39,951 nucleotides of DNA from the NCBI GenBank assembly GCA_016875025.1, contig VGSH01000016.1, positions 1 to 39,951 on the forward strand. Direction: 5' to 3'. Source of the DNA: Deltaproteobacteria bacterium. GTDB lineage: Bacteria; Desulfobacterota; WTBG01; CAIYCZ01; CAIRTM01. The translations under genes were made by a program, and so were the position numbers. Below the pieces are notes generated by a model. It searched no databases. It saw nothing but the letters and a program-made list of their open reading frames with translations, and had not been told where the DNA came from. Below, one piece after another: positions 1 to 9,396 of this stretch (the stretch's first letter is position 1; each line of letters opens with the position of its first letter).

Positions 1-23
1 ACCAATTAAAACTGTTTGATTGA

Positions 24-101
24 AGCCACCTTGGGTGGCTCAAGGTTTATCAATCCGCTTTGAGCGGTTCACATGTTTCAAGCCTCCGGCTTTGCCGGAG
101 G
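24..101. repeat. Cluster of three small perfect hairpins at the window edge
   Basis: Three short perfect stems follow each other: 24-30/34-40, 55-59/63-67 and 83-90/94-101, each with a 3-base loop. No T-tract follows any of them, so they look like intergenic palindromic repeats rather than clean terminators. They directly precede a headless gene fragment, so this repeat cluster may be what replaced the fragment's 5' end. The true left boundary lies outside the window. Confidence 0.5.
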
Positions 102-108
102 TATATGA

Positions 109-354
109 CTGCGACACAGTCTCGAGGGCAGCACTCTGAATTTTAAAGCATCATCACCCGGCATTGATGAAATCAGCGTGATTGCCACGCGTGTTCCGAT
201 TGAGATTTTCCCGCCTGCAGAGGTTGAGCCGGGCCCGATCAGGGCCATTAAAACCGGACGGCAGGAAACCGCACGCGGCATAGACCGGTTGCTGAGGTAT
301 TTTGAAACTGATGTATGGGCGGCGGCTCACAGGAACATACAAACGCTGGAGTGA
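109..354 (+). pseudogene. 3' remnant of an unrecognised protein-coding gene
   Basis: The frame ending at TGA 352-354 is open back to a stop at 106-108. It encodes about 81 residues of protein-like sequence, with an IEIFPPAEVEPGPIRAIKTG stretch and a C-terminal RLLRYFETDVW segment. There is no ATG, GTG or TTG near the left end, and the upstream bases are hairpin repeats. The most likely reading is the C-terminus of a gene cut off by repeat insertion or recombination. It ends 20 bp from the convergent dUTPase stop. I do not recognise the family. Overlapping frames on the other strand have less protein-like composition. Confidence 0.4.
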
Positions 355-3983: not shown

Positions 3984-4203
3984 AAAATTCACTGTGCAAA
4001 CCGCCGGGCTTTAGCTATAAGTGTGTGCAGAAGACGGCTTGAGTACATAATGTAATGCGTGAGCAGCCATGTGCGGTATTTGCGGAAAAATTAATTTCAG
4101 CACTGATCACACCCCGGACCGGGCGCTGATCGAGCGCATGTGTGCTGCGTTGAGCCATCGCGGCCCTGATGACAGCGGCGTGCATATTGCCGGGCGCGCC
4201 GGT
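3984..4203 (+). repeat. Left copy of an asnB 5'-end direct repeat
   Basis: The segment from about 3984 (AAAATTCACTGTGCAAA) through the ATG at 4069 to 4203 is a second copy of about 9179-9396. The upstream part is diverged but alignable, sharing CTGTGCAAA and GGCTATAAGTG-like blocks. From the ATG the two copies are identical at 134 of 135 positions. Homology stops abruptly at 4203/9396. Together the copies bracket a 5-kb accessory block. Confidence 0.85.
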
Positions 4204-4253: not shown

Positions 4254-4316
4254 GACTGATAGGCACTTGTTTTGCGATGGGCAGACTATAAAACAGGCGC
4301 GGCTGTGTGCCAAGTC
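4254..4316 (-). repeat. Promoter-bearing repeat, copy A (short)
   Basis: The shortest copy of a four-member family (A 4254, B 5208, C 6640, D 8884). It keeps the core GATGGGCAGACTATAAAACA. Read leftward it has a -35 of TTGGCA (complement of 4308-4313), a 17-bp spacer and a -10 of TATAGT (complement of 4285-4290). Similarity to the other copies ends soon after. It points toward the broken asnB fragment, antisense to it. Confidence 0.7.
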
Positions 4317-4622
4317 ATAGGGTAAAAGGGGATTTATTTTCTTGGGATCAGGCTTGGCGCGCAGGTTGCGGTCATCGTAAAGAGTTTGACCGCGACAGGC
4401 GGCGCATCGCGCTTGACCTTGCCGCTGCGGCTGACGCAGCACGGGAGGATAATGCCGAAGAGCAAGCCCTGCGAAGGAAATATGTCAGTTCCGGACCGAA
4501 GCCCAGGGGATTAGCCTCGCTCGGCACCCTGGGCGATGCCCTGCGCCGGCTGACGGAAAAAAAGGCGGCAGGGATCAACGGACGCGTCCCGGTATTCCCT
4601 TCTGCTCCCCCTGCTGTCCCCC
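4317..4622. other. Degenerate stretch with no recognised gene
   Basis: An open frame on the + strand (4307-4642, about 111 codons) is rich in Ala, Arg and Asp. It has no recognisable family, no ribosome site, and starts inside repeat copy A, so I do not call it a gene. The stretch may hold decayed remains of genes from the island. The PIN-toxin frame becomes recognisable just after it. Confidence 0.3.
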
Positions 4623-5207: not shown

Positions 5208-5456
5208 GATAGTTGATAGGAACTTGCTTTGTGATGGGCAGACTATAAAACAGGGTCGATTGTGTGTCAGGAGAGATGTCGGCGCACGATGTGGGTACGT
5301 CCGGCGGGCCAGCAAAGAACACTGGGATGAACTATAGTGCGGTACGGCACCCGGTCGGACAATTTATGCCTTATGTCAACCGGCGGGGCTGTTTTTGCGC
5401 GCAGCCGTCCCGATCAGCCTTGATGGGTGTTTTCATAGAAAGGCTTCAAAGGGGTA
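5208..5456 (-). repeat. Promoter-bearing repeat, copy B
   Basis: About 250 bp alignable end to end with copy D (8884-9132). Shared blocks include GATAGGAACTTGCTTTG, GATGGGCAGACTATAAAACA, TTGTGTGTCA, TGTGGG, TTATGTCA, CGCGCAG and AGGCTTCAAAGG. Read leftward, a -35 CTGACA (complement of 5265-5270), 17-bp spacer and -10 TATAGT (complement of 5242-5247) form a promoter. It fires toward the antitoxin's 3' end, so it could make antisense RNA to the toxin-antitoxin pair. Confidence 0.75.
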
Positions 5457-5722: not shown

Positions 5723-6547
5723 TCAATACTGCCCGTCGGCGATGCGTATCCAGCCCTCGGGGAGGAGATCCCGCGTATCAAAATTCCGTGTATCCCCGTC
5801 CAGGCCAAACCAGCGAAGGGGCGCGATAACTTTTTTTGAAGGGTTGCACGCGAGCCAGGCCCCCCACCATGAATAGGACGAATTGGCGATGATAAAATCA
5901 TCGCACAACGACATTAAACACAGGTCGAAACGATTATCCGCGGTATCTGAAACGATAAACCGTGCATTGTCAAAAAGCCGCTGCTGCCTGCACCAGGCAG
6001 GGTCATCAGAGAAAACTATCACATTGCGACCTGGATCAAAATGTTGCAGGGCCGCTTCATAATAGGTCAGCGGCAGATTGAAATGATTTTTGCTGTTGAT
6101 AAGGTAATCGGTGCGGCGCACATGCAGAGCGACCGGATTTTGCACAGTGGCGATCATCGCCTTGCAGCTGCTCAGGATTTCATCCTTAAAAACAAAATCC
6201 TTACGAATTTCGTCCGCGATATGCCTGAAATATTTCTCGGACTGGAAATATCCCAGCAGACTCACATTATCAGGGCATGAGTACAGCAGCTCTTCATCGC
6301 AATGGAAGAAACGTTCACGCACCGTACGGGTACGCCATTTTTTTAAGAGACCGACCCTAACCCGAAGGTCAAAAGCATCGAAAAGTTCCGTCCTGATTTT
6401 ATTTCCGATGCCGTCGTCAACCGGCTGTGTATGGTTGGGGATACATATATCGGCTCCGGCATTGTACGCGATGCCCTTCAAGGCCGCATACTGAAACATC
6501 TGGTTGGCGAGCCGTCCCATCCGGCCGAGTGCGTTGAACCCGATCAT
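5723..6547 (-). CDS. GT11 family glycosyltransferase (alpha-1,2-fucosyltransferase type)
   Basis: Transfers L-fucose, or a related L-sugar, from its GDP-sugar to a galactoside acceptor on a surface glycan. The 274 residues show the GT11 pattern: an N-terminal GRMGRLANQMFQYAAL segment (8-23), the donor-site HVRRTDY motif (142-148) and a C-terminal DFIIANSSYSWWGAWL motif. ATG 6547 is preferred because AAGGAAG lies about 13 bases upstream and the family's N-terminal strand begins there; a TTG at 6589 would add 14 residues but has no ribosome site. The gene sits in the direct-repeat-bounded island and lies about 120 bp downstream of the leftward promoter carried by repeat copy C. No gmd/fcl GDP-fucose genes are in the window. 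Confidence 0.88.
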   Translation of the reverse strand: MIGFNALGRMGRLANQMFQYAALKGIAYNAGADICIPNHTQPVDDGIGNKIRTELFDAFDLRVRVGLLKKWRTRTVRERFFHCDEELLYSCPDNVSLLGYFQSEKYFRHIADEIRKDFVFKDEILSSCKAMIATVQNPVALHVRRTDYLINSKNHFNLPLTYYEAALQHFDPGRNVIVFSDDPAWCRQQRLFDNARFIVSDTADNRFDLCLMSLCDDFIIANSSYSWWGAWLACNPSKKVIAPLRWFGLDGDTRNFDTRDLLPEGWIRIADGQY

Positions 6548-6666
6548 ACTGCGCTTAATCTTCCTTTGCGCGGCCAGTTCCGAGAACAAAAAGTTCGGAG
6601 CGTGGAGTTCGTAACCCGGAGCGGTATAACTACTGAACTGAGAGGAACTTGCTTTACGATGGGCAA

Positions 6667-6695
6667 AGTATAAAACAGGGGCGGTTGTGTGTCAA
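6667..6695 (-). promoter_or_regulatory. Leftward sigma70 promoter in repeat C, upstream of the GT11 gene
   Basis: On the minus strand: TTGACA (complement of 6690-6695), 17-bp spacer, TATACT (complement of 6667-6672). The -35 is perfect and the -10 matches 5 of 6. It lies about 120 bp before the GT11 start with no gene between, so it is the natural promoter for that gene. Confidence 0.75.
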
Positions 6696-6750
6696 CAGCA
6701 CTGTCGGCGCAATTCTAGGCAGGCAGGGTCGGGCAATCAATAAACAGCGT

Positions 6751-7036
6751 CAGATTTGTCCAAAATAAATTATTGGATCGCTGCTGAAGGCCCTCAGGCC
6801 GGGGCCGTCCCGTCCCGTCCGGCAAGGAAGACCTCATTTCATTATCGGCCCGTGTGCCGGAATATTTCAAACGGGCCAGGCACGCCCCCGCGATTGTTGT
6901 CTACAGCAGTGCGCCCGGGCCGTGTATACAATGAATTTTACAGGACGTGCCGTTGCATCGGCAGTGCAAAAACTGCCGGATGGGACGGCACGGTTCCGGC
7001 CTGAGGGCCTGTTCTAAATTATTTTGGACACTACTG
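6751..7036. mobile_element. 286-bp MITE-like element with 9-bp target duplication
   Basis: The ends are imperfect terminal inverted repeats of roughly 65 bp: left CAGATTTGTCCAAAATAAAT, right complement CAGTAGTGTCCAAAATAATT. Matching inner blocks are GGCCCTCAGGCCGG and CCGTCCC(G/A)TCCGGCA. A perfect 9-bp direct repeat AAACAGCGT flanks it (6742-6750 and 7037-7045). The inside is too short for a transposase, and the only open frame (6756-7004) lies within the inverted repeats and is not convincing. It is therefore a non-autonomous element moved in trans. I cannot assign the parent IS family from the ends alone. Confidence 0.85.
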
Positions 7037-7280
7037 AAACAGCGTGATTAAAAATTGTGCGGTGTGGCGCGCGGTCTGATATGGGGCTTTATGCCAACAG
7101 GCACAGCTCTTTGTGCGTGCAGCCGTCCCGGTCAGCCGTGATGGGTTTTTTCATAGATAGGATATTCCAAGGTGGTGGACATGCAAAAAGTTTATTCTTT
7201 ACCCCTTGGCAGGCTGGAGAAAAAATCATTTCAAACAGGCTGTTCAAAACTGCCCAGATGCAGGGCGCTCAAAATTATTT

Positions 7281-7308
7281 GCAGGGGCATGGCATGCCGT
7301 GCCCCTGC
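7281..7308. repeat. GC-rich palindrome
   Basis: GCAGGGGCA at 7281 pairs with TGCCCCTGC ending at 7308 around a GGCATGCC centre. The same palindrome type appears at about 26467-26494. It would form a stable hairpin in either transcript direction. No T-tract follows. Confidence 0.55.
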
Positions 7309-7357
7309 CGTGCGTCACCGTGATCCCGCTATGCATATAACAAAATTCTGTAATCAC

Positions 7358-7464
7358 GTTGTCATTTCGAGTTCCGACGCAGTAGGAGAGAGAAATCTTT
7401 CCTTCTGAATCAGGATCTCTCCCGGAGCCAGGCCTGAGCGCAGCCCAAGGGGGGCGAGATGACG
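7358..7464. repeat. GTCATTTCGA-type intergenic inverted repeat, copy 1
   Basis: Begins TTGTCATTTCGA and ends in the complement-like GGGCGAGATGACG, with GGAGAGAGAAATCTTT and GGATCTCTCCC in between, which pair internally. A second, shorter copy lies at 8803-8875. It is non-coding and of a kind I know as widespread in environmental Gram-negative genomes. Confidence 0.55.
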
Positions 7465-7486
7465 CCTTTTTTCATTACGACACAGT

Positions 7487-7545
7487 CTGTACGCCGCAGC
7501 GACGGGTGATGAGCGCAACGCCGCAGATGGGGACGGCCTGTTAGC
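7487..7545 (-). repeat. Partial inverted copy of the 844-965 repeat
   Basis: The complement of this stretch reads CCCATCTGCGGCGTTGCGCT and then CGTCGCTGCGGCGTAC, matching the core of 844-965. Only the left half of the element is present. The remainder of 7177-7672 holds other repeats and no gene I can support. Confidence 0.6.
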
Positions 7546-7672
7546 ACTGTAACGGTCGCCACGGATATAATCGAATCAAGCCAATAAACAATTTCGACGT
7601 ATATCCAGAACCCGGCGGCATGTACATTCACTGACTGATGTACTATGTAGCTATGTAGGATGGAGCCTTGTC

Positions 7673-8883: not shown

Positions 8884-9132
8884 AGTTGATAGGAACTTGC
8901 TTTGCGATGGGCAGACTATAAAACAGGGGAGCTTGTGTGTCAAGAACAATGCCGGCGCACTATGTGGGCGGCTCAGGGGCGGGCAACAAAAAAGGTGTAA
9001 TGAAATATTGAGCGGTGCGGCAGGCGCATCTGATACGGATATCTTATGTCACCCCACAGGGCAGTCTGTGCGCGCAGCTTTGCTGTTCAGCCCTGATGGA
9101 GTTTTATAGACAGGCTTCAAAGGCGTAAGCAG
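8884..9132 (-). repeat. Promoter-bearing repeat, copy D (complete)
   Basis: The uninterrupted reference copy, about 250 bp, from AGTTGATAGGAACTTGCTTT to AGGCTTCAAAGGCGTAA. It aligns with B along its whole length and with C once the MITE-like insert is removed. It ends about 50 bp before the right asnB direct repeat begins, so the repeat family and the asnB duplication are neighbours on both sides of the island (copy A follows the left asnB fragment). Confidence 0.8.
8915..8943 (-). promoter_or_regulatory. Leftward sigma70 promoter in repeat D, upstream of the epimerase
   Basis: On the minus strand: TTGACA (complement of 8938-8943), 17-bp spacer, TATAGT (complement of 8915-8920). It has a perfect -35 and spacing, with a -10 matching 5 of 6. 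The transcript would run about 270 bp through the 8803-8875 hairpin before reaching the epimerase ATG. Confidence 0.72.
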
Positions 9133-9178: not shown

Positions 9179-9396
9179 AAAATTTCGCTGTGCAAATCGC
9201 TACGCTTTGGCTATAAGTGAATTCAAAATCTGGTTTGATCGGATACTCCTCTGAGGGAGCCATGTGCGGTATTTGCGGAAAAATTAATTTCAGCACTGAT
9301 CACACCCCGGACCGGGCGCTGATCGAGCGCATGTGTGCTGCGTTGCGCCATCGCGGCCCTGATGACAGCGGCGTGCATATTGCCGGGCGCGCCGGT
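9179..9396 (+). repeat. Right copy of the asnB 5'-end direct repeat
   Basis: Counterpart of 3984-4203: AAAATTTCGCTGTGCAAA and GGCTATAAGTG upstream, then the first 45 codons of intact asnB. The near identity inside the coding part, compared with the weaker match upstream, suggests recent exchange or duplication of the coding end. Confidence 0.85.

Follow-up and report, generated by a model that had tools for sequence, protein, structure and literature searches.

The window analysed here is a whole contig (C16, 39,951 nucleotides) of a bacterial genome assembled as 3.25 Mb in 254 contigs. It holds a 286-bp element (Table 1), and the 9-mer AAACAGCGT occurs exactly twice in the window, each time abutting one end of this element. 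Read inward, the left end is CAGATTTGTCCAAAAT and the right end CAGTAGTGTCCAAAAT, and 13 of the 16 terminal bases are equal. The perfect 9-bp duplication and the imperfect inverted ends around 286 bp, both described in the earlier note, were confirmed, and the coordinates given there are exact to the base. Inside the ends lies an inner palindrome, whose arms pair at 89% in the window copy and at 92% in many other copies. As single-strand DNA, the element has a fold of -79 kcal/mol against a shuffle mean of -45.3 kcal/mol (z -8.8), and none of 200 shuffles was as good. The longest frame in the window copy is 82 aa, and a transposase gene is absent.

Table 1. Positions of the element, its host repeat and neighbouring features in the window, and of split and short copies elsewhere in the genome.
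Feature	Position	Strand	Remark
Host repeat copy A	4254-4338
Host repeat copy B	about 5211-5455		uninterrupted
Glycosyltransferase family 11 gene	5723-6589	-
Host repeat copy C, left part	6639-6750
Predicted sigma-70-like promoter	6695-6667	-	TTGACA-17-TATACT, 11/12
Target duplication, left copy	6742-6750		9 bp, AAACAGCGT
MITE	6751-7036	+	286 bp; orientation set to put the IS-5'-type end left
Left end, IS-5'-type	6751-6774	+	CAGATTTGTCCAAAATAAATTATT
Inner palindrome arm	6788-6824	+	pairs with 6974-7010
Inner palindrome arm	6974-7010	-	pairs with 6788-6824
Right end, IS-3'-type	7013-7036	-	CAGTAGTGTCCAAAATAATTTAGA, read inward
Target duplication, right copy	7037-7045		9 bp, AAACAGCGT
Host repeat copy C, right part	7046-7176		set apart by the MITE
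Short dispersed repeats	7209-7316, 7387-7463, 7488-7531		the last also inverted at 859-904
Host repeat copy D	about 8884-9123		uninterrupted
139-bp direct repeat	4065-4203 and 9258-9396		99% identical
Split MITE copy	L019 (C100) 1765-1888 and L076 (C10) 1-124		contigs joined by duplication GTAGTTATG
Short derivative, 82-83 bp	L080, C1:2012-2094		perfect 9/9 duplication
Short derivative, 82-83 bp	L081, C7:13349-13430		8/9 duplication
Short derivative, 83 bp	L078, C5		diverged; perfect 9/9 duplication

The host repeat and its empty site

The element splits copy C of a host repeat that is present in the window as copies A to D. When the element and one AAACAGCGT are taken out, copy C aligns with the uninterrupted copies B and D. 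The alignment score of copy C with copy D is 173 when emptied and 112 when filled, with a maximum of 117 for a shuffled right flank; the corresponding scores with copy B are 179, 104 and 90, respectively. An exact empty site was found in a genome of the same genus (G001), where contig C95 reads CATAAACAGCGTGATTAAAAATTGTGC with a single AAACAGCGT, and this repeat copy scores 210 with the emptied and 130 with the filled sequence. The earlier note had located the empty site in the window itself: copies B and D are indeed colinear with the emptied copy C, while the clearest empty site is the one in G001, outside the window. Searching three window proteins by tblastn against the readable part of the G001 locus gave nothing. 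Its neighbours differ over that part, so the locus probably represents a different copy of the repeat and not the orthologous place.

The host repeat is multicopy in three genomes of the same family (G001, G002 and G008), and the MITE was found in none of the family genomes searched. The insertion is therefore younger than the spread of the repeat, so that the relative date proposed in the earlier note holds, and the G001 site supports the insertion into a pre-existing repeat.

The predicted promoter in copy C points to the glycosyltransferase gene, and the MITE was inserted about 55 bp upstream of the predicted core promoter, which is untouched. The host repeat (copies A to D) bears such a predicted promoter on the minus strand and may itself be a mobile or amplified unit. 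Three further short dispersed repeats lie in this intergenic region, each with several matches in family genomes. In addition, an asparagine synthase gene starts with the right copy of the 139-bp direct repeat, and the left copy therefore looks like a stray copy of the gene start.

Copies, age and range of the element

MITE matches were obtained at 40 places in the own genome (E <= 8e-20, 72-100% identity, palindrome self-matches excluded). Three pairs of these places each represent two halves of a single copy, which limits the number of copies to 37 at most. For the analysis of duplications, 22 full-length copies were drawn from 30 rows; the remaining eight (L018, L019, L027, L029, L080, L083, L084 and L224) are truncated, interrupted or short, which makes an end-to-end alignment meaningless, and L019 and L080 were examined separately with the split and short copies. 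Perfect 9-bp duplications, each of a different sequence, flank 15 of the 22 full-length copies, and imperfect ones flank six (8/9 match in four, 7/9 in two), leaving the copy on C60 as the sole one without any duplication. Around the 15 perfectly duplicated copies, exact flank repeats of other lengths span 1-3 bases only. These counts clearly contradict the refuting case named in the earlier note, in which a second copy with independent target duplications would be lacking. Being short and multicopy, with inverted ends and independent duplications, the 286-bp element is supported as a MITE, a non-autonomous IS derivative.

Many contigs break off inside MITE copies, and half copies on separate contigs are joined by 9/9 duplications in the pairs C100/C10, C45/C37, C149/C168 and C79/C129; the chance of any 9/9 agreement among the 99 possible half-pairs is about 0.0016 under a random model. 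At a TA dinucleotide, the C100/C10 copy is interrupted by a different element, and since C100, on the other side, has the same GTAGTTATG, this element was a later insertion into the MITE. The short derivatives on C1 and C7 appear to share one common internal deletion, so mobility may require no more than the ends and 20-50 bp of inner sequence. A sequence with a CCTCCGGCTTTGCCGGAGG hairpin, which we take to resemble an IS200/IS605 end, cuts another copy (L018, C30, 1-216) close to its right end.

Divergence from the consensus is 0.3-5.6% in 19 of the 22 full-length copies and 17-29% in the other three, and the main burst therefore came after an older presence. The MITE was absent from 57 other genomes around the host (among them one from its genus and seven from its family), two of which have just 29- and 39-base matches to it. 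A scan of 395 phylum genomes for the 18-base right end gave exact matches only in the own genome (21 matches; reversed control, 0), and a search of viral contigs for the exact right end found none. The MITE has thus spread recently, in the lineage of one genome.

No frame of at least 100 codons spans the element in any of the 19 near-consensus copies, and a simple ORF count places most of these copies between genes, often within 150 bp of a gene. A 178-codon open frame, a candidate gene at most, runs across one old copy (L220, C14:26446-26730; 21% divergence). A coding function was considered and rejected: two stop-free frames run through the consensus, yet such a frame also appears in 506 of 2000 shuffles, and in the old copies the open frames are not those of the consensus. 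An RNA family was likewise rejected, with no Rfam match up to E 1 within 6500-7600.

Candidate sources of the transposase

The earlier note expected a parent IS with the same inverted repeats and 9-bp duplications as the MITE. This IS was sought in the assembly and was not found; only a cousin is present. This is the sole intact DUF4372 IS4 found in the assembly (C7:21174-22489, L093 1005-2320; 1316 bp). Its transposase (388 aa) contains DUF4372 and DDE_Tnp_1 (PF01609; NCBIfam NF033592). The inverted ends of this IS, CAGTAGTGTCCCAACGTT, are perfect over 18 bp, and it is flanked by a perfect duplication of 9 bp, AGTTAATAC. A PF01609 search of the assembly gave two transposase genes only, the IS4 on C7 and an IS1380 on C52. 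The latter was rejected as parent because its ends differ. An IS256 parent was also rejected, since the PF00872 match is just one gene split over C90 and C198, and the two loci have no MITE-like end within two mismatches. The same was concluded for the element that splits the C100/C10 copy, inside which contig C10 begins, because its sequence begins C12 and C77 without a MITE end; we presumed it to be IS630-like from its final 36 aa by eye, and this stretch has no Pfam, NCBIfam or plasmid match.

Relatives of the IS were collected from plasmid matches and from the phylum, where the C7 protein as query found them in 26 of 297 genomes and the G051 protein in 32 of 395. Ends were located by inverted-repeat match and duplication only, independently of any motif. 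Among the 28 rows of DUF4372 IS4s, 13 have 9-bp duplications and one more has 10 bp; of the 14 rows without a duplication, seven have both end motifs and the others are cut or decayed. The plasmid loci show a 9-bp duplication in five of seven cases, and the ends of the Klebsiella and Arenibacter plasmid ISs (L184 and L187) were not recovered. In both sets the ends have the form CA----TGTC(C/T).

Six of these transposases form one IS4 clade with unequal ends (100/100 support), and a recognisable end is kept in five members (G051, G049, G319, G353 and G286). The 5' end is CACATCTGTCCAAAAT (CACTCTTGTCCAAAAA in G049), and the 3' end is CACTGCTGTCCAA(A/G)AT where intact (G051, G319 and G286). The two ends of the MITE, CAGATTTGTCCAAAAT and CAGTAGTGTCCAAAATAATTT, differ from each other in the same manner and stand in the same order. 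When 20 bp of each end were compared in matching order, using G051, G319, G286 and the left end of G353 (its 3' end is a fragment) and leaving out G049, the MITE agreed with the clade at 29-32 of 40 bases, while none of the 16 other ISs exceeded 26 of 40, whichever order was used. Because the ends match in the order of the clade, the TGTCCAAAAT-ended clade is the likely source of the transposase, and the parent type, as judged from sequence, is likely an IS4-family clade with DUF4372 and DDE_Tnp_1, whose ends are similar but not identical to those of the MITE. No member of this clade was detected in the assembly, where the G051 transposase as query (E <= 1e-70) finds only the C7 protein, with 34% identity. 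Nothing in the interior of the MITE was recognised in common with any IS, so descent by internal deletion can only be conjectured. As for target choice, both groups favour A at duplication position 1 (15 of 21 MITE targets and 15 of 20 IS targets), although the preference of the MITE is a weak one (P 0.004 without correction for the nine positions). At position 9, T is strong in the ISs (15/20) and seen in just 10 of 21 MITE targets.

We consider it highly probable that the MITE was moved by an IS4 transposase of the TGTCCAAAAT clade. The MITE would retain only two IS4-family ends around a long palindromic non-coding filler, and the transposase of an autonomous IS of this clade (IS4 family, DUF4372 and DDE_Tnp_1) would bind both unequal ends and insert the element at cuts staggered by 9 bp, in DNA that is A+T-rich and mostly intergenic. 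Gap repair would then give the 9-bp duplications, and one such insertion split copy C of the older promoter-bearing repeat. The earlier note had held that a transposase acts or acted in trans; the ends do point to an IS4-family type, and since the MITE codes for none, we infer the action in trans. The clade presumably supplied this transposase, and the autonomous partner has presumably been lost from the genome or is missing through the fragmented assembly.

Cross-mobilisation by the C7 IS4, which belongs to another clade and is still in the genome, appears quite unlikely, even though this IS has perfect ends, the same duplication length and a complete YREK motif (at residue 290, as in the G051 transposase), and its outer 11 bases (CAGTAGTGTCC) are those of the MITE right end. 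Past these 11 bp its ends diverge, with 24-26 of 40 matching bases against 29-32 for the other clade; they also equal each other, whereas those of the MITE are unequal, and there is a single copy of this IS against about 35 MITEs.

Two further readings dispense with such a transposase or with the insertion itself. The strong hairpin, the small size and the mostly intergenic position would suit REP-type elements, recombination between repeats or a structured RNA gene family. We regard spread of this kind as extremely improbable, because perfect duplications at unrelated targets and an exact empty site are the signature of staggered-cut transposition, there is no Rfam match to E 1, and the open frames are no better than those of shuffles; as the main route it is already refuted by the duplications. 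An assembly artefact or contamination might be suspected in a genome of so many contigs, many of them ending within MITE copies. This deserves hardly any credence, since the window copy is embedded 6.7 kb deep in a contig of 40 kb, half copies are joined across contigs by their own duplications, and the host repeat is native to the family.

The end pair in other genomes and among known systems

Across the GTDB genome collection, 27 stretches contain the 19-base right end: 17 in Nitrospirae HyVt-545, four in two other Nitrospirota, three in two Ignavibacteria, two in one member of the Spirochaetaceae and one in a member of the Prolixibacteraceae. Their inner sequences, compared by eye, are unlike the MITE. 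A convincing second end, again of the unequal kind, is present in three of the 27 loci. In HyVt-545 (L096 and L106), CATAT(T/C)TGTCTAAAA lies at 579 and 472 bp, with flanks 8/9 alike, and in one member of the Ignavibacteriales (L100), CATATCTGTCCAAAAT lies at 252 bp with an 8-bp duplication one base out of register; two more loci (L102 and L119) have an end-like stretch with flanks that do not match. When the C7 protein was searched against the seven source genomes, one of them, an Ignavibacteria genome, yielded a full-length relative, whose ends are CACTACTGTCCAAAAT and CAATACTGTCCAATTA and which is flanked by a 9-bp duplication. Weaker pieces were found in three others; HyVt-545 gave no match. 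In Spirochaetaceae UBA1318 (L110 and L121), contigs end 23 bases past the start of the 19-base right end; such breaks are as expected for a multi-copy IS, and the C7 protein as query did not find an IS in that assembly. Non-autonomous elements with this kind of unequal end pair but unrelated filler occur in the own genome, HyVt-545 and Ignavibacteria, and a close partner was undetected in the first two. The end pair may be a persisting, travelling unit, and the MITE a parentless element that has outlived its partner and was maintained or lately spread within one species by a lost transposase or that of a cousin, a possibility that we hold as doubtful although not negligible.

According to Table 1 of De Palmenaer et al. 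(2008; PMC2266710), elements of the IS4Sa subgroup have the ends CA------T, a duplication of 8-10 bp, the YREK motif and a length of 1150-1750 bp. Judged by these tabulated features, and not by a tree with named IS4Sa elements, the ISs related to the MITE resemble this subgroup: they are mostly 1.25-1.46 kb, and the two checked (C7 and G051) have YREK. Both MITE ends have CA and T at position 9, and the 9-bp duplication is in the range; the MITE differs in being 286 bp without a transposase. ISPosp4 (IS4 family, Polaromonas JS666 plasmid, NC_007950), whose transposase is 57% identical to that of C7, has the ends CAGTAGTGTCCGG and a 9-bp duplication, but it lies on the C7 side of the tree, outside the clade matching the MITE ends. 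MIC231, a mobile insertion cassette with IS231 ends, is similar in being a non-autonomous relative of an IS4-family IS, but it belongs to the IS231 subgroup and has other ends. It is reportedly mobilised in trans and carries passenger DNA. Chunjie, a MITE of Geobacter uraniireducens, is described in PMC10969869 as 178-235 bp long, with inverted ends, direct repeats and about 38 mostly intergenic copies, and is similar in these respects. MITECca01 of Cardinium, a roughly 240-bp MITE with lineage-specific spread, differs, as described in PMC9769881, in its origin from an IS982-family element and in the presence of the intact parent. Among the matches listed in the open-licence literature, there was no paper on this MITE or on MITEs of DUF4372 IS4s. 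Since MIC231 and other IS-derived MITEs are known, an IS4-type MITE is of an expected, ordinary kind.

The ends of the MITE tie an anonymous repeat to a definite IS4 clade, and its 9-bp duplications allow the joining of broken contigs. The 286-bp and 83-bp forms together are a small test system for the parts of an IS4 end that are needed. At the locus itself, the insertion is clean and datable: a young, genome-specific MITE in a promoter repeat that is common to other genera of the family.
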